Assembly (NCBI GenBank): GCA_034401795.1
Contig: CM067371.1
Coordinates: 78,623,482 to 78,687,481 of the forward strand
Direction of reading: 5' to 3'
Length of the DNA stretch: 64,000 nt
DNA from: Chaetoderma sp. LZ-2023a
Lineage: Eukaryota; Mollusca; Caudofoveata; Chaetodermatida; Chaetodermatidae
The translations under genes were made by a program, and so were the position numbers. The notes beneath the pieces were generated by a model. The model was given only the letters and a program-made list of their open reading frames with translations. It was not told where the DNA came from and made no database searches. Shown here piece after piece: positions 324-63,988 of this stretch (position 1 is its first letter; each line of letters begins with the position of its first letter).

Positions 324-2388
324 TTAAGAATAGGTAGGGAGGGATGAAACCTTGTCATTGTTATCAGGAACTATAAGGTCTAACTTTGATCTTACTAGCA
401 AATCTTTCAGGTTTGGATTTCTATTGTAAGCTATTACTGGTCGTGCTTTGATCGGTTCCTTTAATTTAGATTGCAACTGTGAATATTCGTCTTTCGTGGT
501 TTTCGCTAATTCAACATTACGTCTATTGTATATGAGTTGAAATGGGATAATTTTGTTCTTTTGTGATATTCCCGAATCTACATTTATTCCAAATGGTGCT
601 TTTGTTTGGAGTGTTCTAATCCAATGGCCCTCTCGGATTTTGCGAAACGAACTCGTTTCTTCCTCACTATCGAAGCTCGGAATCTGTTCTATTGGCATGA
701 TTTCAAAATGATGTTCAACTGAATGATCCGGAAGTTGGAAATGTTGAGCAATTGGCGTATCTGCTGAGGTGTTAATATCAGAAACGTGGCGTCTAGCACG
801 CACTCTAAATGCATTTTTTGTTTCACCAACATATTGTTTCTGGCAAAGGGCACAATTGATCAAATAGACTACATTCTCAGAATCACAATGCATATTAGTT
901 CGGATATGATATTCATTTTTAGTTTGAAAGCTCAGGAATGTTTGTTGGTTTACAATATAGTTGTTTACTTTGCATCTATTTTTGTCGCATATAGAAACTG
1001 ATCCATCGCACATGATTGGTTTATTGTGTTTAATTTGGACAGGTTCAAACTCGGGTCCGCTATGAGGTTTTAGATTTTCAAGCTCATTGATGGTGTCTGC
1101 TTTAATTTTTCGAAGAAAACGGGCTGAATAGCCTCGTGCTTTCAAAGCATCAAACAGAGTAGCGCATGCCAAACTATGAAGATGTCATCTAGATATCTGA
1201 GGTAAAGAAGAGGCTTTTTTGTTGATTTGTTCAGTGCCTCCTCTTCCCACTCCGCAACATAAATCGTGGCAAAATTTGGGCTGAATCGTTTACCCATTGC
1301 GCATCCACAGATTTGAAGGTAATTTTCACCATTAAATTGGAAATCGTTTCCTTTAAGACTTAGCTCTAATAATTTTAGAATTTCCGTGTCTGGTCGATCT
1401 GGATCAGGAAATTTGACAAAAGAATTCTTAATAGCATTGACTCCAACATCAATATCTATATTGGTATACATAGCATCTATGTCTAATGTGACTAAATATG
1501 CATCTTTCGGAACTGACAATTTGGATAGCTTTGAAAGAAAGTGTTCTGTGTTCTTGAGAAAGCTCTTGTGTCTATTAGCAATGGGCTTTAAATAGTAATC
1601 AATATATTCTGAAATGCCATAAGACTCACTGCCACAGTCCGAAATGATGGGTCGTCCAGGCGGTGTCAATGGATCTAACCAGGTGCTGATAGGTTTATGG
1701 ATTTTAGGCAAGATATAAAATGTCCGATTTTGTGGATTATTCTCACCTAGCAGATACTTTAGCTGTTTCTTATCGATGTACTTATCTGTATGCAATGAAT
1801 TAAGTATTCAATGAGATTTTGTCGGTTCTGAGGCCAAATTAAATTATCAAGTTTTCTGTAATGCCTGATGTTAGTTAACTGCCTTTCGGCCTCGCGGATG
1901 TAGTTTTCTCTAGACATAATCACAGTTGCTGAACCTTTATCGGCTGGTTTTATAATAATATTCTGATTTCTACGTAATTTGTTGATGGCCTGTCGTTCGA
2001 GAAATGAAAGGTTTTGCTTATTGTTTGTAACTGGCAATGATCTGGCTATACCAGCAACCGTTTTTATGGTTGCTTTAACATTGTCATCAACTAGCCTATC
2101 TGGAGGGTCCCAACCGGATTTTCCAGTGAATGGTTTTGACTCTCCATTTAAATTTTGAAAATGATGGGCTATTTTTACTGAATGACCAAAATTAGCTACT
2201 TCAATAAGACCTGTGTCTAAAAGCAAATCTAATCCTGTTTTTGGTTTTGGAGTTGGTATAAAAGTAAGACCACGATCGAGAATTGATTTTTCAGATGGTG
2301 AGAGATCATAGTCAGCTGCTAAATTGACAAGGTTTGTTCCTAATCCTATGTTAGGGGAGCTATTGCCTTGACCCACATTTAGTTTAAA
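324..2388 (-). pseudogene. PLE ORF2 (reverse transcriptase + GIY-YIG), copy 1, broken
   Basis: This is the same protein as the intact ORF2 at 6642-9008. Two lesions break it. Near 1165-1171 a 301-bp deletion relative to copy 2 (its 7485-7785) removes the segment between the RT catalytic core and the Cys-rich linker and shifts the frame; a 3-nt microhomology (TGC) sits at the junction. Near 1808 a single T is missing from a TTT run. The N-terminal part (2376 leftwards), the RT core including the metal-binding TLDIDAMYTN and YLRYLDDIF motifs, and the C-terminal GIY-YIG domain each remain open, but no single frame joins them. It cannot encode a working enzyme. Confidence 0.9.
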
Positions 2389-4085
2389 CTAAGTACCGTC
2401 AACCAATGGTTATAAATACAATTAGCTGTTTCTTTCGTCCAATGGATTCTATCCTTCTCAACATGAAAATTCGCATCAGAAATTTTGGGGATGACCTTAT
2501 CAACGTGGCAGTTGGACCTTGCTGATTCGTTGATACGCTTGAGACAGTACCTTTGCCTGTCTGACAAGCTATCAGAGAAGTTAATCTCAGCAAAGTGCAA
2601 CTCCGCATTAGGGAAGGTGGTTTTAAATTCACGAGCCATGAACCGTAAATGGCTTGAGGCTTTGGTTGGATGCTCATTTTTGGAGTTGATGCCAATATTC
2701 AAGATGATCTTCTCCGGGCTAGGGCCATCTTGGTGTCGCATAGCCATTGTTCTGAAATGTGATAATGCGGCACCAGGATAGCACTCAACCTGGATGTCAG
2801 GATGGACATCTAAATCAATTCGGGATAGATTAGAGGACCCTATCATCAGAATCTTTTTGGTGATTCTGGGGATCCTCCACAGGCCCTTGCTATGCGATTG
2901 ATGACGGTACTTAGCAAACATCCTGTCAGACAGGTTACTATTATTCTCCATAGGAGGGAGAGGAGGTGGAGACAGAAGAAGAGGAGCAGAAGAAGGTGCG
3001 TGAGGAGAAGAGAGATGAAGCGTAGGAGGAAGAGGAGGAGGAGGGATGGAGAGAGGAGATGCAAGAGGAGAAGATTGAGTATGAGGAGCAAGAGGCGGGA
3101 TTGAGTGAGGAGATGCATAAAGAGAAGAAGTTTGAGGAGGAAGAGGAGGAGGCGGGATTGAGAGAGGAGATGCATGAAGAGAAGAAGTTTGAGGAGGAAG
3201 AGGAGGAGGCGGGATTGAGAGAGGAGAAGGAGGAAGAGGAGAAGATCGAGTCAGAAGGTGGCGAGGAGAAGATAGTGGAAGAGATGAGGAAGAGTTGCTA
3301 GGTGGTAGATTGGGGGAACAGTGAGTAACATCCCGACAACGGCGCACATGAGGAGAATTTGTTTTTGGGAGAGCCGGCCATGACTCTGTTACATCATCAA
3401 CACCAGGTGCTGGTGTTGGTGATGTATACAGATTCGTCCGCTTGGAAGTGGTAGGCGAGGGTGTGAAGGTAGTTGGTGACCGTTGTCGTTTGTTAGTCAT
3501 TGTTGAATGATAACCTGAACCTGTACTCGGTGTGGCCGCCGGTGTTGGTAGAGACATCACTCTATTTTGCTTATCACTAGCTATTTCTGCCAAAAATTTC
3601 CAAAAATTTGTGATTGTCGTTGTGGCCAATTTATTTCCAAAATTTTGCCTACCCCATTTCAATGCTATGCCTTTGGCTCTGTCTAGATCAAGAATTACAT
3701 TAGATTCGGCCACTTTTACCTCTGCCTTTAATTTGTCCAATTTGCTTCGATAATGGTTGATTAAATTTTCTAAGCAGCTATGAGCCCAAATTTGGTTTAT
3801 CATGCTGGTCGATTTCAAAAATTCGTCATCTCGTAAGGCAGGGCAGAAAAACGAGTTCATCTCCTCCATTTTCATGCTGAGAGATTTCGGGAGAGAGTCT
3901 GATGCCAAATGCTCTCGTAAAAGACCATAGTGATGCAAGCATTGCAACACATGGAAGTACATCTTAACCAGTCTCTGAAAGGCCTGAACAGACTGGTTAG
4001 GAGCACTTTTGGTTGAAGAAAAGTTGGACGCTGGGTTGCCAGATTTGCGTCCTTTACCCACTGGGCCGTTGAAATTCTTGGCCAT
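2379..4085 (-). CDS. PLE ORF1, SGNH-hydrolase-like protein (intact, 568 aa)
   Basis: The ATG at 4085 opens a 568-residue frame. Residues 1-200 are basic, then helical, with no domain I recognise. Residues about 255-375 are very rich in Pro/Ser/Leu and contain tandem repeats around [11 protein letters not shown]. Residues about 405-568 look like an SGNH/GDSL hydrolase: a block I nucleophile in IGSSN, a glycine in block II (YPGA), Asn in block III (IGINS) and D-x-x-H in block V (DRIHW). Esterase-like ORF1 proteins are known in some CR1-type LINEs; I do not recall one in a Penelope-like element. The frame ends in a slippery heptamer directly before TAA, so a share of product should be an ORF1-ORF2 fusion. 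The SGNH call rests on motifs only. Confidence 0.8.
   Translation of the reverse strand: MAKNFNGPVGKGRKSGNPASNFSSTKSAPNQSVQAFQRLVKMYFHVLQCLHHYGLLREHLASDSLPKSLSMKMEEMNSFFCPALRDDEFLKSTSMINQIWAHSCLENLINHYRSKLDKLKAEVKVAESNVILDLDRAKGIALKWGRQNFGNKLATTTITNFWKFLAEIASDKQNRVMSLPTPAATPSTGSGYHSTMTNKRQRSPTTFTPSPTTSKRTNLYTSPTPAPGVDDVTESWPALPKTNSPHVRRCRDVTHCSPNLPPSNSSSSLPLSSPRHLLTRSSPLPPSPLSIPPPPLPPQTSSLHASPLSIPPPPLPPQTSSLYASPHSIPPLAPHTQSSPLASPLSIPPPPLPPTLHLSSPHAPSSAPLLLSPPPLPPMENNSNLSDRMFAKYRHQSHSKGLWRIPRITKKILMIGSSNLSRIDLDVHPDIQVECYPGAALSHFRTMAMRHQDGPSPEKIILNIGINSKNEHPTKASSHLRFMAREFKTTFPNAELHFAEINFSDSLSDRQRYCLKRINESARSNCHVDKVIPKISDANFHVEKDRIHWTKETANCIYNHWLTVLSLN
2382..2388 (-). promoter_or_regulatory. Candidate -1 ribosomal frameshift site, PLE copy 1
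   Basis: On the minus strand the heptamer T TTA AAC is in the correct phase with ORF1 (codons TTA AAC) and is followed immediately by the stop TAA. A -1 slip re-reads TTT AAA and continues CTA AAT GTG GGT into the ORF2 frame. ORF2 has no in-frame ATG until about residue 154, after conserved sequence. Seven bases downstream begin GGG and CAAGG, which could pair with CCC and CCTTG further on in H-type pseudoknot order; that structure is weak and unproven. Confidence 0.75.
2940..3300. repeat. Purine-rich tandem repeats inside PLE ORF1
   Basis: The plus strand is almost pure G/A (GAGGAG, GAAGAAG) with repeating blocks of roughly 60 bp. It encodes the Pro-rich repeats of ORF1 on the minus strand. 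Copy 2 carries the same block at 9560-9920. Confidence 0.85.
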
Positions 4086-4714
4086 TTTAGAACGTAATCA
4101 AATTTCTACAGATTTATGTCAAATTTAGTCAGAAAAGTTCAAAAAAGTTAACTACCAAATATTAACTAGAGCGATATGTGTTGAAACAATTTAGAGACTG
4201 AAAAATAAGAACAATTAATACAAGATTATTATATATATATAAAATTAAAGCTTACACTGTCAGTTGCTGGAGCGCTTTCGACGTAATGGTCTTCGTCATG
4301 CAGCGAAAAAACTGGTCTAATGGCAACTGATAATTCTTACATATTTATAGGAGAATTACTACAATGGTGACTACTGATTAACTATTAATTCAGTCTCTCC
4401 ACAAAAGATCAAACTAAACCCGAAGACCTGCTTTAGATCAATGTGCGCCTTTGGCGCTACTGAAGTCAAACAGCTAATACAAAAGGCGTGATTGCTTAAT
4501 TATATCGAGCTTATCTAACTGTAGCATGGGTTAGTACGCCGGTTCGTTTCAGGCGATTAAGGTGTGAGAATAACAATGAGGGCTATTTGGTCAGTCATTA
4601 GATCAAATGCTGCCGAGATATGTTTAATCATGGCGGCCTGAGAGTAATTTACTTGTTGTTTGAGTACTGCAAGGGACAGGTTTCCTGAATAAAGATTATT
4701 AAAACAAATTCTGA

Positions 4715-5375
4715 CAAGTTATACAGTTATTTGATCTTGGCGAATCGGTTCACTCAGTCATTACAAAGCGTTGATTACTTCTTTGTAATAAGTTGGCGTT
4801 GCCGTGTGTTCGAAAATAGGAACAAATTTGGACAGTTAGGAGTTATACAGTTTTTTGATCTGGGCAAATCGGTTCACTCAGTCATTACAAAGCATTGATT
4901 ACTTCTTTGTAATAAGTTGGTGTTGCCCTGTGTTCGAAAATAGGAATAAACAAATAGTTTTGAGCAGGTCTTTCTGACATAGGATGATCCATTGTGGATT
5001 GACTGAATGTTGTTGGTCTAGTGAGATTCCTTCTAAAGAGAGGTGGTTGTAAGTCACAGGTTGTTTGAGCTTTGTAAGCTTATATGTCCAACAACCCATG
5101 CACTCATTCACCCGCCCAGACACCAGCATATTAATCCATCCATCAGTCCATCCTGCCATCCACCTAAACAAATACTTGATTAAGGGGAGAACAGATTTGT
5201 AAACTGATAGACAGACACCCGGTGGGTGACTAGACGACTGAACAAATGAATAGGCAAATGGGTGAAAGCTACAATTTCATTTCCGAATTTGGTTTAATTT
5301 ATTCACTTAGTCATTGCAAAGCGCTAATTGCTTCTTTGCAATGAGTTGGTGCGGCTGTTGAAAATATAAGAATAA
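4715..5375. repeat. Three copies of a unit with a CATTACAAAG/CTTTGTAATG hairpin
   Basis: 4719-4822 and 4839-4945 are a tandem duplication (about 90% alike by eye) and 5288-5376 is a third, more diverged copy. Each contains a short inverted repeat, TTACAAAG then CTTTGTAA, around a 10-16-bp loop. The unit resembles a MITE or SINE fragment; it shows no coding. Confidence 0.7.
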
Positions 5376-5667
5376 AATACGGCAGGTGGTTGCGGAAGAG
5401 AGGTGGTTTGTACCTTTACAAACATATATGTCCAAACAATCCGTGCACCCACCCGGCCACCCACCCAGTAATCCATCCATCAGTCCATCCACATAGACAA
5501 TCAAATGATGTCTGGGAGGCACAGACCAGTAAACCAATAGAGAGGCCAAGGACAGGTGACAGGATGAGTGAACAGATAGGTGGATGAACGAACGAATGAA
5601 TGAATGAATAAACGCACATATGAACGCATGCACGCACATACGCACGGACGCCCGCCCGCCCGCCCGA

Positions 5668-5720
5668 ACGAACGAACGAACGAACGAACGAACGAACGAA
5701 CGAACGAACGAACGAACGCA
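5668..5720. repeat. (AACG)n microsatellite
   Basis: About 13 tandem AACG units, bordered by diverged CGCC and CATG repeats. The same motif occurs in the PLE tails. Confidence 0.9.
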
Positions 5721-6061
5721 TGGACGATTGCACGTATGGACGACAGTGCAAACGAAATATCAGCTACCAACAGACCAATTCCGACAGTGTATTTGTACAT
5801 GTAAACAGTTTAAAATTGTTTGATTTGGGACAAATATGGAGGCCTGGCACAAGCAAGTCCGTCTTTACATTGAAAAATAACGCATTGGCACAGGAATTTA
5901 ATTACAAATTTCTTTGCCTAAATTTGTCCTATCGAGACCAAGTTTAGATTTACTTAGAGTGGTCCCCCCTTGAGATTAGTTGGGGTAAAGTGAATTAATC
6001 AGTAGGTCGCTTTAACAGGTAAAGGCTGGGATTGATCCTACATTATAGAGAAATCAGACAC

Positions 6062-6120
6062 ACGAATGCACACACATACACATACGCACGTACATACGCA
6101 CGTACACACGCACGTACATA

Positions 6121-6196
<76 letters not shown>

Positions 6197-6480
6197 CCTG
6201 AACGAATGCACGCAATAATACATGCACACAGTAATACATGCACGAATGCACGCAATAATGCATGCATGAACGCATGCACGAACGGACGCACGAATGCATG
6301 CACGCACACACCCAGGCACTAATGTACTCACGAATTAATGCACCCACACCCACATACACACGCACACATACACCCACGCAAGTATAGATGCACACACGTA
6401 CGGATGTACGAGCACACACCCATACACACATACGAACAAACGCCCGGACGCACGAACGAACGAACGAACGAACGAACGAA

Positions 6481-6556
<76 letters not shown>

Positions 6557-6641
6557 CTTTTGCAGACACAAAATTAAAAGATGTCCTACGGATATGATTT
6601 CATGTTGCCCCACCATTGATTTTGGTTGGGATTAGATTTAT
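6062..6641 (-). repeat. 3' tail of PLE copy 2 with long (TGCG)n arrays
   Basis: Downstream of the ORF2 stop lie about 60 bp of unique sequence shared with copy 1, then ACGC arrays (6480-6557 and 6120-6197) separated by diverged ACAC/ATGC sequence. The arrays are longer than in copy 1 (about 47 bp net before the ORF2 stop), so they change length faster than the rest of the element. Confidence 0.85.
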
Positions 6642-9008
6642 TTAAGAATAGGTAGGGAGGGATGAAACCTTGTCATTGTTATCAGGAACCATAAGGTCTA
6701 ACTTTGATCTTACTAGCAAATCTTTCAGGTTTGGATTTCTATTGTAAGCTATTACTGGTCGTGCTTTGATCGGTTCCTTTAATTTAGATTGCAACTGTGA
6801 ATATTCGTCTTTCATGGTTTTCGCTAATTCAACATTACGTCTATTGTATATGAGTTGAAATGGGATAATTTTGTTCTTTTGTGATATTCCCGAATCTACA
6901 TTTATTCCAAATGGTGCTTTTGTTTGGAGTGTTCTAATCCAATGGCCCTCTCGGATTTTGCGAAACGAACTCGTTTCTTCCTCACTATCGAAGGTCGGAA
7001 TCTGTTCTATTGGCATGATTTCAAAATGATGTTCAACTGAATGATCCGGAAGTTGGAAATGTTGAGCAATTGGCGTATCTGCTGAGGTGTTAATATCAGA
7101 AACGTGGCGTCTAGCACGCACTCTAAATGCATTTTTTGTTTCACCAACATACTGTTTCTGGCAAAGGGCACAATTGATCAAATAGACTACATTCTCAGAA
7201 TCACAATGCATATTAGTTCGGATATGATATTCATTTTTAGTTTGAAAGCTCAGGAATGTTTGTTGGTTTACAATATAGTTGTTTACTTTGCATCTATATT
7301 TGTCGCATTTAGAAACTGATCCATCGCACATGATTGGTTTATTGTGTTTAATTTGGACAGGTTCAAACTCGGGTCCGCTATGAGGTTTTAGATTTTCAAG
7401 CTCATTGATGGTGTCTGCTTTAATTTTTCGAAGAAAACGGGCTGAATAGCCTCGTGCTTTCAAAGCATCAAACAGAGTAGAGCATGCACTATTCAGATTT
7501 TGCCTGTTGCTAGAGTTTCGAAAAAATCTTATGATTTGCGATTTGATCAAACCTTTAAATGTGTGTGGAGGATGAAATGATTTTTTGTGAAGCAGCTGAT
7601 GTGAGTCTGTTGGCTTAAAGAATACTTTATATTCTAATTTTCCAGAGGAATCAAATTGAGGACCCTTATAGATCGTGACATCTAAAAAGTCAACCGATGT
7701 TCCACTAATAGTAGCTTTTAGCTTGATGTTTGAATCTTGGTTATTTAAAATGCGAAAAAATTCCCAAAAGTCTTCTTCTGAATGTTGCCAAACTATGAAG
7801 ATGTCATCTAGATATCTGAGGTAAAGAAGAGGCTTTTTGGTTGATTTGTTCAGTGCCTCCACTTCCCACTCCGCAACATAAATCGTGGCAAAATTTGGGC
7901 TGAATCGTTTACCCATTGCGCATCCACAGATTTGAAGGTAATTTTCACCATTAAATTGGAAATCGTTTCCTTTAAGACTTAGCTCTAATAATTTTAGAAT
8001 TTCCGTGTCTGGTCGATCTGGATCAGGAAATTTGACAAAAGAATTCTTAATAGCATTGACTCCAGCATCAATATCTATATTGGTATACATAGCATCTATG
8101 TCTAATGTGACTAAATATGCATCTTTCGGAACTGACAATTTGGATAACTTTGAAAGAAAGTGTTCAGTGTTCTTGAGAAAGCTCTTGTGTCTATTAGCAA
8201 TGGGCTTTAAATAGTAATCAATATATTCTGAAATGCCATAAGACTCACTGCCACAGTCTGAAATGATGGGTCGTCCAGGAGGTGTCAATGGATCTAACCA
8301 GGTGCTGATAGGTTTATGGATTTTAGGCAAGATATAAAATGTCCGATTTTGTGGATTATTCTCACCTAGCAGATACTTTAGCTGTTTCTTATCGATGTAC
8401 TTATCTGTATGCAATGAATTAAGTATTTCAATGAAATTTTGTCGGTTTTGAGGCCAAATTAAATTATCAAGTTTTCTGTAATGCCTGGTGTTAGTTAACT
8501 GCCTTTCGGCCTCGCGGATGTAGTTTTCTCTAGACATAATCACAGTTGCTGAACCTTTATCGGCTGGTTTTATAATAATATTTTGATTTCTACGTAATTT
8601 GTTGATAGCCTGTTGTTCGAGAAATGAAAGGTTTTGCTTATTGTTTGTAACTGGCAATGATCTGGCTATACCAGCAACCGTTTTTATGGTTGCTTTAACA
8701 TTGTCATCAACTAGCCTATCTGGAGGGTCCCAACCGGATTTTCCAGTGAATGGTTTTGACTCTCCATTTAAATTTCGAAAATGATGGGCTATTTTTACTG
8801 AATGACCAAAATTAGCTACTTCAATAAGACCTGTGTCTAAAAGCAAATCTAATCCTGTTTTTGGTTTTGGAGTTGGTATAAAAGTAAGACCACGATCGAG
8901 AATTGATTTTTCAGATGGTGAGAGATCATAGTCAGCTGCTAAATTGACAAGGTTTGTTCCTAATCCTATGTTAGGGGAGCTATTGCCTTGACCCACATTT
9001 AGTTTAAA
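6642..9008 (-). CDS. PLE ORF2: reverse transcriptase with GIY-YIG endonuclease (intact)
   Basis: About 784 residues without interruption. The N-terminal region carries the PLE-typical GLTFIPTPK near residue 35. The RT follows: ILPKIHKP and GRPIISD fingers, metal-binding motif A (TLDIDAMYTN, about residue 297), GKRFSP, and motif C (YLRYLDDIF, about 394). A Cys-rich linker (CDGSVSKCDKYRC) precedes the endonuclease, whose VYLI and YVGET pairs (about 603 and 615) with following Arg and His match the GIY-YIG signature. This is the enzyme expected to nick DNA and copy the element RNA. There is no ATG near the frame start; the frame opens at the ORF1 slippery site. Clade resembles Neptune/Poseidon-type PLEs (from memory). 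Confidence 0.93.
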   Translation of the reverse strand, partial: FKLNVGQGNSSPNIGLGTNLVNLAADYDLSPSEKSILDRGLTFIPTPKPKTGLDLLLDTGLIEVANFGHSVKIAHHFRNLNGESKPFTGKSGWDPPDRLVDDNVKATIKTVAGIARSLPVTNNKQNLSFLEQQAINKLRRNQNIIIKPADKGSATVIMSRENYIREAERQLTNTRHYRKLDNLIWPQNRQNFIEILNSLHTDKYIDKKQLKYLLGENNPQNRTFYILPKIHKPISTWLDPLTPPGRPIISDCGSESYGISEYIDYYLKPIANRHKSFLKNTEHFLSKLSKLSVPKDAYLVTLDIDAMYTNIDIDAGVNAIKNSFVKFPDPDRPDTEILKLLELSLKGNDFQFNGENYLQICGCAMGKRFSPNFATIYVAEWEVEALNKSTKKPLLYLRYLDDIFIVWQHSEEDFWEFFRILNNQDSNIKLKATISGTSVDFLDVTIYKGPQFDSSGKLEYKVFFKPTDSHQLLHKKSFHPPHTFKGLIKSQIIRFFRNSSNRQNLNSACSTLFDALKARGYSARFLRKIKADTINELENLKPHSGPEFEPVQIKHNKPIMCDGSVSKCDKYRCKVNNYIVNQQTFLSFQTKNEYHIRTNMHCDSENVVYLINCALCQKQYVGETKNAFRVRARRHVSDINTSADTPIAQHFQLPDHSVEHHFEIMPIEQIPTFDSEEETSSFRKIREGHWIRTLQTKAPFGINVDSGISQKNKIIPFQLIYNRRNVELAKTMKDEYSQLQSKLKEPIKARPVIAYNRNPNLKDLLVRSKLDLMVPDNNDKVSSLPTYS

Positions 9009-10124
9009 CTAAGTACCGTCAACCAATGGTTATAAATACAATTAGCTGTTTCTTTCGTCCAATGGATTCTATCCTTCTCAACATGAAAATTCGCATCAGA
9101 AATTTTGGGGATGACCTTATCAACGTGGCAGTTGGACCTTGCTGATTCGTTGATACGCTTGAGACAGTACCTTTGCCTGTCTGACAAGCTATCAGAGAAG
9201 TTAATCTCAGCAAAGTGCAACTCCGCATTAGGGAAGGTGGTTTTAAATTCACGAGCCATGAACCGTAAATGGCTTGAGGCTTTGGTTGGATGCTCATTTT
9301 TGGAGTTGATGCCAATATTCAAGATGATCTTCTCCGGGCTAGGGCCATCTTGGTGTCGCATAGCCATTGTTCTGAAATGTGATAATGCGGCACCAGGATA
9401 GCACTCAACCTGGATGTCAGGATGGACATCTAAATCAATTCGGGATAGATTAGAGGACCCTATCATCAGAATCTTTTTGGTGATTCTGGGGATCCTCCAC
9501 AGGCCCTTGCTATGCGATTGATGACGGTACTTAGCAAACTTCCTGTCAGACAGGTTACTATTATTCTCCATAGGAGGGAGAGGAGGTGGAGACAGAAGAA
9601 GAGGAGCAGAAGAAGGTGCGTGAGGAGAAGAGAGATGAAGCGTAGGAGGAAGAGGAGGAGGAGGGATGGAGAGAGGAGATGCAAGAGGAGAAGATTGAGT
9701 ATGAGGAGCAAGAGGCGGGATTGAGTGAGGAGATGCATAAAGAGAAGAAGTTTGAGGAGGAAGAGGAGGAGGCGGGATTGAGAGAGGAGATGCATGAAGA
9801 GAAGAAGTTTGAGGAGGAAGAGGAGGAGGCGGGATTGAGAGAGGAGAAGGAGGAAGAGGAGAAGATCGAGTCAGAAGGTGGCGAGGAGAAGATAGTGGAA
9901 GAGATGAGGAAGAGTTGCTAGGTGGTAGATTGGGGGAACAGTGAGTAACATCCCGACAATGGCGCACATGAGGAGAATTTGTTTTTGGGAGAGCCGGCCA
10001 TGACTCTGTTACATCATCAACACCAGGTGCTGGTGTTGGTGATGTATACAGATTCGTCCGCTTGGAAGTGGTAGGCGAGGGTGTGAAGGTAGTTGGTGAC
10101 CGTTGTCGTTTGTTAGTCATTGTT
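8999..10124 (-). CDS. PLE ORF1, copy 2, lacks N-terminal third
   Basis: Residues corresponding to about 196-568 of the copy 1 ORF1 are present, including the Pro-rich repeats and the SGNH-like region with IGSSN and DRIHW. The only changes seen are a few substitutions (for example Met to Lys just before FAKYRH). The native start is missing; the open frame extends upstream only into microsatellite. As an isolated gene it is probably not expressed correctly. Confidence 0.85.
9002..9008 (-). promoter_or_regulatory. Candidate -1 ribosomal frameshift site, PLE copy 2
   Basis: Identical heptamer, phase, stop and downstream sequence to the copy 1 site at 2382-2388, here followed by a fully open ORF2. 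Confidence 0.75.
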
Positions 10125-10560
<436 letters not shown>

Positions 10561-14710: not shown

Positions 14711-14849
14711 AATGTCTAGACAATGGTTAGCCAACTATATTATTTTTGTTGTCGGGGTCTCATTGACTAGGTACTCATAATGCATTCATACTGTGTGTAC
14801 CCGAACCTGACATCTCTGACTCGCTAATAGCATATGAAGTTTCCAACAG

Positions 14850-16238
14850 TTTTTATGTGGCCCCTTTGACAAATTGCCCTTTGAATCTTACAGGGTAAGT
14901 CCCATTGGTATAACCGTGGGGAAGTATTGGGGCAAGCATCGCCTTATACTGGATCTTTCTTCACCTCATGACACTGAAGCTCATACACGCATACATAATT
15001 TAATTGACCCAGGTAATTGCCATTTGTCCTATGTTAAGATAGATGATGCCATTAAAATAATCCAATATCTAGGAAGAGGGGCCTCCATGTGCAAACCCAA
15101 TATAGCCGACGCGTTCAAACTAATGCCAATCCATCCATTGCAATGGCATCCTTTTGCATTAAATGGCATTCAAATTATTATTTTTATAAATGACCGACCT
15201 TTGGCTGCCGCTCCATCCCTAAGATTTTTTACTCACTTCTTACCGCAATTTGTTGGATATGTAACATCAAATATGGTTCGAATACATCCGTCATCTATCG
15301 GGGGTTACCATTGAAGAGCCAGGTAAATGTGGAGAATGCAACATGGCGCTACTTTGCCTAATGTTCAACATACTCGATATTCCTTTGGCTAAGCATAAAA
15401 CTATGGAACCCTCTACCACCATTGAATACTTAGGGATAATCCTAAATTCGGTCAATATGGACGCGAGATTACCGAAAGATAAATTGGAATGCATCTTGGC
15501 TATGTTAGTCTTTTCAAAGTCACCAGTAAGTCACTAAACGAGACCTATTACAACTTTTAGGCCATTTGAACTTGCACGCAGGAGGGTTGTTTCAGGCAGG
15601 GCCTTCGTATCTCGCCTTACCACGCTATCCACTACATTTAAGAATTTGAATCAACATGTTAAAATCAATAATGATTGTCGAGAGGATATACATATGTGGT
15701 TTAAATTCGTATGTGATTGGAATGGTGTTTCCATGTTCTACAATGGCCAAATTACTTTGGCAGATCATCTGTGCCTATATACTGACGCTTCCGGTACCAT
15801 TGGGTATGGGTGCTACTTCCAAGGAGCCTGGTTCTCAGAAGCCTGGCCTGAATCTCTACATAAATCCATTACAGAAGACAGTGAGCTATCTATTGCGTTC
15901 AAAGGGCTATACCCTGTGGTTGTAACATCAATCTTGTGGGGCTCACAGTGGGTCCGTCACCGTATTTTGATTATGTCAGACAATACTGCCACGGTTGGCA
16001 TTATTATGAAGGGTAGATCCAAGTCCAAACAAATAATGCCATTAGTTTGAGTCTCACTTTACAAGCTACAAAATGTAACTTCATTATCTTAGCGCGACAC
16101 TTACCTGGTCACCTAAATTCTATTGCAGATTCTTTGTCTCGTCTCCAGATTCAACGTTTCCGGGAACTGGCCCATGAAGCTCAGGAATCTCGCTGCACGG
16201 TCCCCTCCTCCGAACGAGGTCTTGTGGCACTCCAACCC
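14850..16238 (+). pseudogene. DIRS-type retrotransposon RT and RNase H, decayed
   Basis: In order: a DIRS-like RT start (SPIGITVGKYWGKHRLILDL), LSYVKIDDAIKIIQ, the metal-site region degraded to ADAFKLMPIHP, then a frameshift near 15185 after which the expected LDD motif is replaced by unrelated residues. LAKHKTMEPSTTIEYLGI resumes at 15388. RNase H follows (LYTDASGTIGYGCYFQGAW, SDNTATV) and then HLPGHLNSIADSLSRLQIQR to about 16160. Several frame changes and stops make it a relic. DIRS elements replicate through RT, RNase H and a tyrosine recombinase; the recombinase is found at 17813-18710 after a LINE insertion. Confidence 0.88.
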
Positions 16239-16266: not shown

Positions 16267-17247
16267 TCACGCTTGGAGAGCCGTTCTCAAGATGAAATCT
16301 GTGGTTTTCTGCAGTTCTTCCACAGGCCCATACAGCATTTCAAGAAAGGAGGTTAACAAAGGCCAGATCTCTTCTCTCAGCAGCTGATACGTACTGCAAC
16401 ATTGAAGTATGTGCTCTGTGGTCTGTTCTGCTTCTCCACAAGGACAAGCGGGCGGTGTCGTTAGGTGGAACCGCCTGTACATGTGTTGGTTTAGTTTGTT
16501 ATGTCCAGTTCTGAGACGAAAAATGGTCACTTGCTCTGGCCTCGAGAGATGATGGTAGGCATCTTCTGATTGAGGTGTTCTATAGAGTGACTTGATGGTA
16601 GTCTTCATCTCTGTATGCGTAACCATGTTTTCTGTCTGATTATCTTCTGCACCCACCTTTACCATCTTGTCTGCTTCCTCATTTCCTTGGACTCCACAGT
16701 GTGAGGGGATCCACTGCAATGCTATCCGAAAGCATTTGATGGTTTGTAGTGCTTCTTCAAGTTGTGGCAGCTTACCTTTGGTGATAGCCTCAAGGACGGA
16801 GCGGGCATCAGATAAAAAGACAATCTGTGCAATAGGGTCTGCTGTTCTGCTGATGGTATTAGCTGCATGGACCAGTGCTTCGACTTCAGCTCTGTAGTTT
16901 GTGCAGTGTTTGCCTGTCGGTATTGCAGCTGACTCATGTTGTCCGTTTGGATACTGTATGTGCAGTCCGGCACTTCCGCTCCTAATTGCATCTTTGGCTG
17001 ATCCATCTGTGTAGATCCTTATCCATGTCTCCTGAGGGTACATTTCTTCCAGCATGGCTAGGGTCAGGGCCTTCTTGCTCACATCACTGTGTTCATCTTT
17101 GGTTGTGAGATGAGGTACTGTGGTGCGAATATCTATGCTCTCTAGTTTGTTTTCCCAGGGTGGAGGATCAAGGGTGTGGTTTGGGTCTTCTATTTGTGCT
17201 GGCAACATTTCTTGGTGTTTCCTTTGAAGTGCGTTTGTCTCTTTCAC
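16267..17247 (-). CDS. LINE RNase H and C-terminal region (fragment)
   Basis: A 326-residue open frame. RNase H signature: YTDGSAKDA (D), the NYRAEVEAL Glu, SDARSVLEAI (D) and PSHCGVQGNEEAD (D), so all four acidic catalytic positions are present. After it comes a Cys/His cluster (CPCGEAEQTTEHILQCC) typical of I/Jockey-group LINE C-termini. The frame is broken from the RT thumb (17244-17790) by a shift at about 17245. Confidence 0.85.
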   Translation of the reverse strand: MKETNALQRKHQEMLPAQIEDPNHTLDPPPWENKLESIDIRTTVPHLTTKDEHSDVSKKALTLAMLEEMYPQETWIRIYTDGSAKDAIRSGSAGLHIQYPNGQHESAAIPTGKHCTNYRAEVEALVHAANTISRTADPIAQIVFLSDARSVLEAITKGKLPQLEEALQTIKCFRIALQWIPSHCGVQGNEEADKMVKVGAEDNQTENMVTHTEMKTTIKSLYRTPQSEDAYHHLSRPEQVTIFRLRTGHNKLNQHMYRRFHLTTPPACPCGEAEQTTEHILQCCSTYQLLREEIWPLLTSFLEMLYGPVEELQKTTDFILRTALQA

Positions 17248-17795
17248 AAAACTTGATCTTTAAGTCTTCCTGATGACAGCTGTGCTTGCCTGATCTTCAT
17301 TGGGTGGTTGTTGAACGATTTGAACTTTGCAGCTTGGATCAGTGCTTTGCATTCCCTTCCTTTACTAAGTGGGGGGATGCCTGCTGTCTGCTCAATTTTT
17401 TCTATTGGTGTTGATCTCATTCCACCGGTGATGATGCGCAGTGCCTGGTTTTGTACTCTGTCGAGTTTCTGTTGATGAGATTTAGCTGCTGTCATCCATG
17501 AGCTGGATCCATACTCAAGGTGTGGTCGTACGGCACATAGGTAGATGGTCTTGAGGATCCTTTCATTGGCACCCACTTTGTTCCTGCCAGCTTCCTCATG
17601 ATGTTTAGCTTTCTTCTGGCCTTTGCCTCTGCGTTCTGGATGTGCTCCTACCATGTTAATCCTCTGTCATATGTGACTCCCAGGTATGTCTGCTGTGATA
17701 CAAGGGTTGTGGGAGTCGGCTCTAGCACCGGGCACCAGGTGCGCCTATCGTAGCCTAAGGCTTTAATGCCTATATTCAATTTCTTCTTTTCACCA
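17244..17795 (-). pseudogene. LINE reverse transcriptase thumb region (fragment)
   Basis: Contains the non-LTR RT end (YLCAVRPHLEYGSSSW, LDRVQNQALRIITGG). Upstream in the same family YLGVTYDRGLTW can be read but a stop separates it (about 17655). Palm and fingers are absent because of 5' truncation. Confidence 0.8.
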
Positions 17796-22996: not shown

Positions 22997-24657
22997 TACA
23001 CCTGTGCAAAAGTTAAGCACCAGCAAACACAATAGAATGTAGAAACATGATGGTACAACTAGGCTGCCATACTTTTTGTCCCCGCGTTAGCTGACATAAT
23101 TCCAAGTACGAAATGCACATGCATGCATGACTTCACGCCACTTGATGTCCGTGCGCGGCGGGAAACAGCACACGTGTTCAGTTATGTAAAAGTCCAGTTT
23201 GAGGTGTAGAACATTACATACAGATTTAGGCGACAAGATTAGGAATTTTGTGTTCATGACCGTGGTTTATTTGTACAGAGAGAATTAGCTCTTGATTGTG
23301 AACCGCTATGGCAAGACGAAGGTTAAGTGATCGTGTGAAATGGCAAATCATAGGCATGCATACCACTGGTATGTCATGCAGAGAGATTGGCAGACAGCTG
23401 AACATTAACCATACTGTAATCAGTCGTTTGATTGCAAAACATGCGCAAACTAACGAGGTGAAGGACAGGCCTAGATCTGGAAGACCGAAGAAGACTACTG
23501 CCCGTGATGATCGAGCCCTAGTACGCCTTGTTAGGAGATCTCCATTCACCAACAGCAGAGTGCTCAGCCAGCAGTGGGAAACGCGCAATAAAGTGTCAAT
23601 GTCTACCGTCAAAAGGAGACTGTATGCTGCTGGCATGAAAGCTAGGAGACCTGTCAGACGTCCTCTCATCACTGCACACCACAAAGAGGAGCGTCTGAGG
23701 TGGTGCAACGAAAGAAGACACTGGAACATGAGATCCTGGAGACGGGTACACTGGTCCGATGAAAGTCGGTTCCTGCTTCATGCCACAGATGGTCGAACTC
23801 GTGTATGGAGGTCCAGACGCACAGCGTACGACCAACGTAACATCATGGAAGAAGTTCCATTTGGTGGAGGTTCCGTTATGATATGGGGGTGCATCTCATT
23901 TGATTGTAAGCTGGATCTGTTGACTGTACCTGGAACACTAAATGGACAAAGATATCAAGATTCCATACTGGATAGAGTTGTGGTCCCTCATTTTGTAAAT
24001 CATGCACCTGGAACCCACCCTATATTCATGGATGACAACGCCCGACCACATCGTGCTAGAGCTGTGCATGAATACCTCCGCCAGAATGCCATCGAAACCC
24101 TACCATGGCCAGCAAGGAGCCCTGACATGAACCCTATTGAGCATATCTGGGACATTCTGGGAAACATGGTGAGAAGGAGGGATCCTCCTGTGCAGAACCT
24201 ACAGGAATTAACAGACGCACTCCATCTTGAATGGCAACGAATACCACAATGGCGTATCAGTCGGTTGGTGACCAGCATGAGACGTCGTGTCCAGGCCGTC
24301 ATCCAGGCACAAGGTGGATATACCCGGTATTAATAATGACAGTCTCAAACTCGTGCACAGATGTTAAACTTCGTTTTCAGACACCATTAATGACAATCTA
24401 GCCACGTGTGTCAACTGTAGGGCAATAGTTGTCAGTTGTGTCAACGTAACCATATTCAGGCCTCGTTTTCAAGTTCAAACAAAAACATACAGTGTTTCCC
24501 CACCATCATAATCAGCATTCCTCTAGTTGCATTATTACCTCTTGCACTAAGATGGATGGGTACATAAATGTTTATGCTATTGCTTTCTTCATAGCACATG
24601 AATATACCCTCGCATGTGCGTAAAAATAGGGTGGTGCTTAACTTTTGCACAGGTGTA
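22997..24657 (+). mobile_element. Complete Tc1-type transposon (1661 bp)
   Basis: Terminal inverted repeats of 25 bp begin TACACCTGTGCAAAAG (22997-23021 and 24633-24657) and are perfect over that length. TA dinucleotides flank both ends (22995-22996 and 24658-24659), the expected Tc1/mariner target duplication. The single intact transposase lies at 23308-24333. The element sits in the third exon of a Harbinger transposase. Confidence 0.95.
23308..24333 (+). CDS. Tc1-family transposase, intact, DD34E
   Basis: 341 residues, usual for the family. Residues 1-110 hold two helix-turn-helix segments (CREIGRQLNINHTVISRLI; SMSTVKRRL) with a basic linker RPRSGRPKK between them, an AT-hook-like motif. 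Catalytic residues: Asp about 151 in HWSDES, Asp about 243 in MDDNARPH and Glu about 278 in PIEHIWD, with 34 residues between the last two. A Gly-rich box (FGGGSVMIWGC) is present. No frameshift or stop. It would cut at the TIRs and insert at TA. Because the TIRs, TA and catalytic triad all survive, this copy could be active or only recently silenced. Confidence 0.95.
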   Translation: MARRRLSDRVKWQIIGMHTTGMSCREIGRQLNINHTVISRLIAKHAQTNEVKDRPRSGRPKKTTARDDRALVRLVRRSPFTNSRVLSQQWETRNKVSMSTVKRRLYAAGMKARRPVRRPLITAHHKEERLRWCNERRHWNMRSWRRVHWSDESRFLLHATDGRTRVWRSRRTAYDQRNIMEEVPFGGGSVMIWGCISFDCKLDLLTVPGTLNGQRYQDSILDRVVVPHFVNHAPGTHPIFMDDNARPHRARAVHEYLRQNAIETLPWPARSPDMNPIEHIWDILGNMVRRRDPPVQNLQELTDALHLEWQRIPQWRISRLVTSMRRRVQAVIQAQGGYTRY

Positions 24658-35971: not shown

Positions 35972-36335
35972 CGATGTCACGCCCATTTCTAGCCGTGCTC
36001 CGCCCACTTTCAGCGCGTGTTGGAATTGATTTGACATTCAGAAACCTGCATTCAAAGATTCTAATTTTCAGGGTAACTATGCAGGTAAGAGGTTGACTAT
36101 TTTGAAGCTAATTTGACTGGATGTTTTCTGTCATATTAGTTTAAACTATTCAACAAAATGTGTATTCAATTCTAACTTCATCAAATAAAAGACATACAAT
36201 TCTACGCCTTAGTGACAGACCTTTCGATGTTCAGGACGGAGCTATGCCATTTTGATTTTGACGTCAGATAACTAGTGACGTAATTGATTATAAAGTTAGA
36301 TACTTGGGTGACATATCAGATCCCTCAATTGTGGT
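35972..36335 (+). mobile_element. MITE family B
   Basis: Begins CGCCCATTTCTAGCCGTG, contains TGCAGGTAAGAGGTTGACTA (splice-donor-like), an eroded hairpin and ATTTTGACGTCAG, and ends ACATATCAGATCCCTCAATT. Confidence 0.75.
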
Positions 36336-39002: not shown

Positions 39003-61832
<22,830 letters not shown>

Positions 61833-63488: not shown

Positions 63489-63988
63489 NNNNNNNNNNNN
63501 NNNNNNNNNNNNNNNNNNNNNNNNNNNNNNNNNNNNNNNNNNNNNNNNNNNNNNNNNNNNNNNNNNNNNNNNNNNNNNNNNNNNNNNNNNNNNNNNNNNN
63601 NNNNNNNNNNNNNNNNNNNNNNNNNNNNNNNNNNNNNNNNNNNNNNNNNNNNNNNNNNNNNNNNNNNNNNNNNNNNNNNNNNNNNNNNNNNNNNNNNNNN
63701 NNNNNNNNNNNNNNNNNNNNNNNNNNNNNNNNNNNNNNNNNNNNNNNNNNNNNNNNNNNNNNNNNNNNNNNNNNNNNNNNNNNNNNNNNNNNNNNNNNNN
63801 NNNNNNNNNNNNNNNNNNNNNNNNNNNNNNNNNNNNNNNNNNNNNNNNNNNNNNNNNNNNNNNNNNNNNNNNNNNNNNNNNNNNNNNNNNNNNNNNNNNN
63901 NNNNNNNNNNNNNNNNNNNNNNNNNNNNNNNNNNNNNNNNNNNNNNNNNNNNNNNNNNNNNNNNNNNNNNNNNNNNNNNNNNNNNNNN
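63489..63988. other. 500-N assembly gap
   Basis: Exactly 500 undetermined bases; 12 bases follow. Confidence 1.

Follow-up and report, generated by a model that had tools for sequence, protein, structure and literature searches.

A slippery heptamer shared at the ORF1/ORF2 junction of a Penelope-like element and a distant relative points to probable -1 programmed frameshifting

How is a reverse transcriptase made when its open reading frame (ORF) lacks an early start codon and lies out of frame with the ORF before it? This question is raised by a 64,000-nucleotide stretch of DNA (the window) from the 2.44 Gb genome of the mollusc Chaetoderma sp. LZ-2023a (contig CM067371.1, positions 78,623,482 to 78,687,481), whose minus strand carries two copies, A and B, of one Penelope-like element (PLE). 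PLEs are retroelements of a class akin to telomerase, and little is known of their life cycle. Copy A has a full-length ORF1 and a broken ORF2, and copy B has an intact ORF2 and a 5'-truncated ORF1 (Table 1). Sequence comparison makes -1 programmed frameshifting, conserved within this lineage of PLEs, the best explanation by far, and a very probable one. Most ribosomes would translate ORF1, a structural or ribonucleoprotein protein with an SGNH-like domain, and terminate at the TAA beside a slippery heptamer. A minority would slip by -1 on T_TTA_AAC and continue into ORF2, yielding an ORF1-reverse transcriptase-endonuclease fusion at a fixed minority ratio, like retroviral Gag-Pol.

The junction of both window copies reads AGT TTA AAC TAA in the ORF1 frame and TAG TTT AAA CTA in the ORF2 frame. 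The initial annotation had described this ORF1 ending with the heptamer in the correct phase, and had proposed that a -1 slip enters an ORF2 frame closed by a TAG shortly upstream and free of ATG until about residue 154. The ending and its phase were confirmed in copies A and B, and the TAG proved to be the ORF2-frame codon directly 5' of TTT; the long ATG-free start was borne out as well, although the first in-frame ATG of copy B stands at residue 158. Because this TAG precedes TTT immediately, the heptamer is essentially the sole site at which a -1 slip joins the two frames (one or two codons are possible). The GLTFIPTP motif follows 39 residues downstream of the F in FKL, the ORF2-frame reading of the heptamer. 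The junction sequence has two matches in the window against 0.01 expected by chance. The word TTTAAAC is common, with 14 occurrences in the window on both strands, of which four come from the two junctions, where the palindromic AGTTTAAACT counts once on each strand; what is unusual is its phase and place, not the word itself. In-phase X_XXY_YYZ heptamers occupy 5 of 567 positions in the window ORF1, junction included. At 36147 the window holds AGTTTAAACTAA a third time, there without PLE flanks.

The strongest evidence for the proposed frameshifting is comparative. When contigs from bacterial and archaeal genomes were scanned, one related locus came up, L001 (LJHE01000041.1, 11,018 bp), in an Epulopiscium single-cell assembly. 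It is probably eukaryotic contamination of the bacterial assembly, perhaps from the fish host of Epulopiscium. L001 holds two tandem PLE copies 5,441 bp apart, identical over the 3.8 kb compared. Its ORF2 shares 41% identity with the window ORF2 over 752 alignment columns, 40-44% over 681-736 columns with the best eight of 120 relatives listed in a protein search, and 52% over 501 columns with one relative, P0065, which itself carries FKL. The two ORF1s are homologous, both in the N-terminal region (24%, E 1e-7) and in the SGNH-like domain (Table 1). The L001 junction reads TCA TAT TTA AAC TTC AAA GCC CCT TAA, with T_TTA_AAC at the same place and in the same phase as in the window; its flanks differ, and the ORF1 stop comes four codons later. 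This heptamer is the only in-phase X_XXY_YYZ among the 612 positions of the L001 ORF1. Frames, heptamer and phase are here read directly from DNA, as is the recurrence of the heptamer in one distant relative, the single one read as DNA, and TTTAAAC and its phase are kept in it while the flanks have drifted, as the initial annotation had proposed to check. In L001 the ORF2 frame reaches its first ATG at residue 371, and an ATG 64 nt 3' of the heptamer belongs to a different frame; neither element has an AUG route into the start of ORF2, which agrees with the earlier view of the window. Protein-based and DNA scans of viral contigs and a plasmid search gave no relative, and a search with the ORF1 protein gave none (95 candidates, none scored).

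At the protein level, the search returned 823 relatives, of which the 120 listed, together with one more retrieved with the N-terminal 60 residues of P0010 as query, made up the 121 examined. Most of the 120 carry PF00078. A GLxFxP motif (our own pattern) was present in 97 of the 121, with the protein starting at least 32 residues before the motif in 30 and at least 42 residues before it in 20. In 16 of these 20 far-reaching relatives, X-K-L lies 32 to 45 residues ahead of GLxFxP, most often at 38 (39 in the window, 44 in L001). X is F in 12 of them, G in two (P0010, P0041) and K in two (P0018, P0078); P0018 and P0078 look alike, so that the four non-F cases represent perhaps three independent events. 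Among the ten relatives starting 32 to 41 residues before GLxFxP, X-K-L was found in P0065 only (at 32), and most of them start too late. By eye, the residues preceding X are unconserved. As a protein substitution, G or K in place of F is unfavourable: by BLOSUM62, a replacement of F would be G, K or P with a frequency of ~0.10 for the three together. For each of F, G and K there is a homopolymer codon (UUU, GGG and AAA, respectively), and the implied heptamers are therefore U_UUA_AAC, G_GGA_AAC and A_AAA_AAC. These three, with G_GGU_UUU, are named among the shiftiest heptamers on mammalian ribosomes in the part of a recoding review available to us (PMC5009743). An X limited to F, G and K is what a homopolymer-triplet constraint would predict, and we infer that the heptamer recurs in these 16 further relatives. 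ORF1 and ORF2 in one frame elsewhere, an arrangement raised by the initial annotation as counter-evidence, did not turn up: no ORF1-like sequence is fused in frame in any of the 121 relatives (both ORF1s compared; best E 0.47; longest relative 928 aa). As a separate observation, P0014 has FFC at about residue 10, roughly at the X-K-L place, which would be U_UUU_UUU if coded TTT TTT T.

Several points weigh against conserved frameshifting. X-K-L is not at the expected place in four of the 20 far-reaching relatives (P0008, P0014, P0031, P0083), and P0044, whose start 39 residues ahead of GLxFxP takes in the modal place, is without it. The 42-residue cut was chosen after inspection of the data. 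KL pairs elsewhere in these N-termini were set aside, including one that recurs 13 residues ahead of GLxFxP, IKL at 84 in P0031 and VKL at 25 in P0066, and the slippery codons (TTT AAA C) of the X-K-L relatives are read back from peptides. All 25 host copies fetched carry the heptamer, but they were picked by that exact sequence and hence show only that the family is repetitive, not that the site is conserved. Codon changes between copies A and B give no clear sign of purifying selection: 9 are synonymous and 12 non-synonymous in ORF2, and ORF1 has none of the former and 4 of the latter, of which two lie at the homology edge. Across the 25 host copies, distinct variants show no clear bias among codon positions 1/2/3, the ORF1 part having 14/25/24 and the ORF2 part 18/14/21.

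The structure expected to stimulate slippage, a stem or pseudoknot 5-9 nt downstream of the heptamer, gave a mixed result. In both elements a stem can form after a spacer of 6-7 nt, which counts in favour of frameshifting. The initial annotation had described a possible pseudoknot downstream of the window heptamer, and GGG/CCC (spacer 7) and CAAGG/CCUUG do pair as described and form the top pseudoknot by a simple stacking score; against it, 18 of 60 dinucleotide shuffles equal or beat the pseudoknot, which also weighs against frameshifting, and the stem taken singly is matched by 33 of 60. In L001 the stem is stronger: at 7 bp and spacer 6, it was equalled by only 2 of 60 shuffles, and the L001 pseudoknot by 12 of 60. 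Plain ViennaRNA folding was unremarkable, with z values of -0.40 and -0.08 for the window and -0.08 to -1.50 over all junction stretches. The frameshift signal may rely on a stem alone.

Among other explanations, separate translation of ORF2, by reinitiation after termination or from a non-AUG codon, in either case close to the ORF1 stop and with FKL as the conserved start of the ORF2 protein, survives best, and we regard it as improbable. The window has an ATG directly after the stop (TAAATG) and a GTG codon soon after in the ORF2 frame. Reinitiation at TAAATG was rejected, as that start lies in the wrong frame, that of ORF1, and hits TAG ten codons on; TAAATG is absent from the ORF1 stop of L001, which, as stated above, has no early ORF2-frame AUG either. 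Moreover, FKL as a protein-level motif is not expected to vary to GKL and KKL. A little less probable again is splicing, in which an intron removes the ORF1 stop or an upstream ATG exon is joined to an acceptor just before TTT. In its favour, an intron within the ORF of one divergent rotifer Penelope copy is reported in the accessible part of PMC3846280, and an AG (CTTAG) stands directly 5' of TTTAAAC in the window copies. Splicing offers no reason for an X_XXA_AAC-type heptamer. L001 has TCATA before TTTAAAC, so this candidate acceptor is not conserved and CTTAG was rejected, which bears on the earlier caution that a spliced upstream ATG might feed ORF2. Finally, a chance frameshift mutation, by which an originally single frame was split into ORF1 and ORF2 and a pseudogene copy spread, is hardly credible: copy A with its broken ORF2 shows that decayed copies exist here, but ORF2 of copy B is intact, the 121 relatives hold no in-frame fusion, and an in-frame ancestor or decay was rejected on the L001 junction, which shares phase and heptamer at 41% identity, unless this arose independently.

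Conserved -1 frameshifting is thus the reading we retain, and the features on which it bears are collected in Table 1.

Table 1 Features of the two PLE copies in the window
Feature	Position	Strand	Remarks
Copy A ORF1	2379..4085	-	568 codons, first ATG to TAA; N-terminal region common with L001, proline-rich repeats, SGNH-like C-terminal domain
SGNH-hydrolase-like domain, copy A ORF1	2406..2873	-	Blocks GSSNLSR, YPGA, NIGIN, DRIHW by eye; 34% identity to L001 ORF1 C-terminus, E 8e-28
Slippery heptamer T_TTA_AAC, copy A	2382..2388	-	ORF2 frame TTT AAA CTA = F K L
ORF1 stop TAA, copy A	2379..2381	-	Immediately 3' of the heptamer
Possible stimulatory structure	2321..2381	-	GGG/CCC + CAAGG/CCUUG; shuffles do as well
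Copy A ORF2 frame, first open stretch	1759..2388	-	209 codons
Copy B ORF1	8999..10120	-	5' truncation at ~10120; (CAGA)n microsatellite upstream of the truncation
Slippery heptamer, copy B	9002..9008	-	Junction identical to copy A
Copy B ORF2	6642..9008	-	788 codons, uninterrupted; reverse transcriptase + C-terminal GIY-YIG endonuclease
RVT_1 match, copy B ORF2 residues 286-428	7725..8153	-	Pfam E 3e-6; 27.5 bits, slightly under the curated cut-off of 29.6
GIY-YIG match, copy B ORF2 residues 607-696	6921..7190	-	Pfam E 3.6e-4; 21.2 bits, just under the cut-off of 22.6

Beyond its first open stretch, ORF2 of copy A is interrupted, with remaining open pieces at 1142-1807 and 324-1184 and an internal deletion. 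Global alignment of the two copies gave 27 mismatches, a few of them at a non-homologous edge. Tandem repeats of 54-57 nt make up the proline-rich part of ORF1 in both copies (2952-3323, 9572-9943), and long (CAGA)n- and (CGTG)n-type microsatellites (~10150-10480, 6050-6600, 1-240) flank copy B at its 5' truncation and the copies at their 3' ends. The host genome has an array of four PLE copies, ~5.7-6.8 kb apart. Whole-genome counts of the 12-mer AGTTTAAACTAA were 1020 and 1022 against 1371 and 1401 for the reversed control, and being below the control they are uninformative on copy number. In a 200-kb sample of the host genome, fragments of other PLEs occurred in 1 of 20 stretches, without junctions; diverged fragments of other PLEs lie at 4077-9548 of a locus of this genome (L047).

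The assignment to PLEs made in the initial annotation holds, since ORF2 has reverse transcriptase and C-terminal GIY-YIG matches in the window and in L001, where the GIY-YIG match reaches 26.4 bits, over the cut-off of 22.6. With this domain pair, tandem copies and 5' truncation, the element resembles the endonuclease-bearing (EN+) PLEs, that is Penelope/Poseidon and related clades. In the available parts of PMC11167929 and PMC6431247, EN+ PLEs are described as single-ORF elements, whereas here reverse transcriptase and endonuclease share one ORF, and an ORF1 with homology between the window and L001 precedes it in a different frame. We treated this two-ORF layout as a variant within PLEs because SGNH ORF1s have been reported for them. 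Another difference is the hammerhead ribozyme of the pseudo-long terminal repeat, for which Rfam gave no match in the window at gathering scores and none up to E = 1 in 3900-4800 or L001.

The SGNH-like C-terminal domain likens ORF1 to the SGNH-esterase ORF1s of CR1/L2/RTEX long interspersed nuclear elements (LINEs), PLEs and bdelloid Athena elements. By eye, the first SGNH block is GDSN in L001 and GSSN in the window. Pfam gave no SGNH family match in either, and the L001 domain had no PDB sequence match. Structure models of the domain were built from only two sequences in each alignment and are of low confidence: the window model (pLDDT 45) gave Foldseek matches to TesA, Oskar OSK and PAF-AH, the best being E. 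coli thioesterase I (E 3.9e-3), and the L001 model (pLDDT 56) gave a best PDB SGNH hydrolase match to PatB (E 5.1e-6). SGNH esterase ORF1s in PLEs and GDSL ORFs in bdelloid Athena elements appear in the available portions of PMC3905857 and PMC5408684, respectively; the word 'frameshift' is absent from the former, and its single use in the latter is about long terminal repeat (LTR) gag-pol.

The junction has two features of a canonical -1 signal: an in-phase X_XXY_YYZ before the stop in both window copies and L001, and a -1-frame ORF without an early AUG. It shares with retroviral and coronaviral frameshifting of the U_UUA_AAC class the heptamer, its phase, a nearby stop and a potential stem set off by 6-7 nt, and differs in that another retroelement class is concerned and the stimulatory structure of the window is only a candidate. 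LTR retrotransposon gag-pol likewise has a structural ORF followed by reverse transcriptase in the -1 frame, according to the accessible part of PMC5009743, whereas Pfam scans here matched reverse transcriptase and GIY-YIG but none of the protease, RNase H or integrase families. That part of the review does not mention Penelope. The initial annotation knew of no -1 frameshifting in PLEs, and we found no description of frameshifting between PLE ORFs in the open-access full texts searched; a prior mention in other PLE papers or in Repbase entries may exist.

The rest of the window holds other sequences of mobile-element appearance, all judged by eye. An open 343-codon frame at 23302-24333 (+) has the look of a Tc1/mariner-type transposase, two very similar frames on opposite strands (16267-17259, -; 47960-48496, +) look like a LINE RNase H region, and frames at 14838-16050 (+) resemble DIRS-type reverse transcriptase/RNase H. 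A run of N lies close to the end (~63490-63987).

At the level of the lineage, it is fairly likely that a large group of EN+ PLEs retains from its common ancestor a retrovirus-like mode of expression, in which an SGNH-bearing ORF1 is the main product and an ORF1-reverse transcriptase-endonuclease fusion the minor one, by X_XXA_AAC slip sites whose first triplet switches among UUU, GGG and AAA yet stays slippery. If the slip site is indeed conserved, the reverse transcriptase would normally be produced as an ORF1 fusion, at a level fixed below that of ORF1, as for Gag/Gag-Pol. Single-ORF annotation would then miss the N-terminal part of the enzyme, which would bear on the purification of active protein from this lineage.

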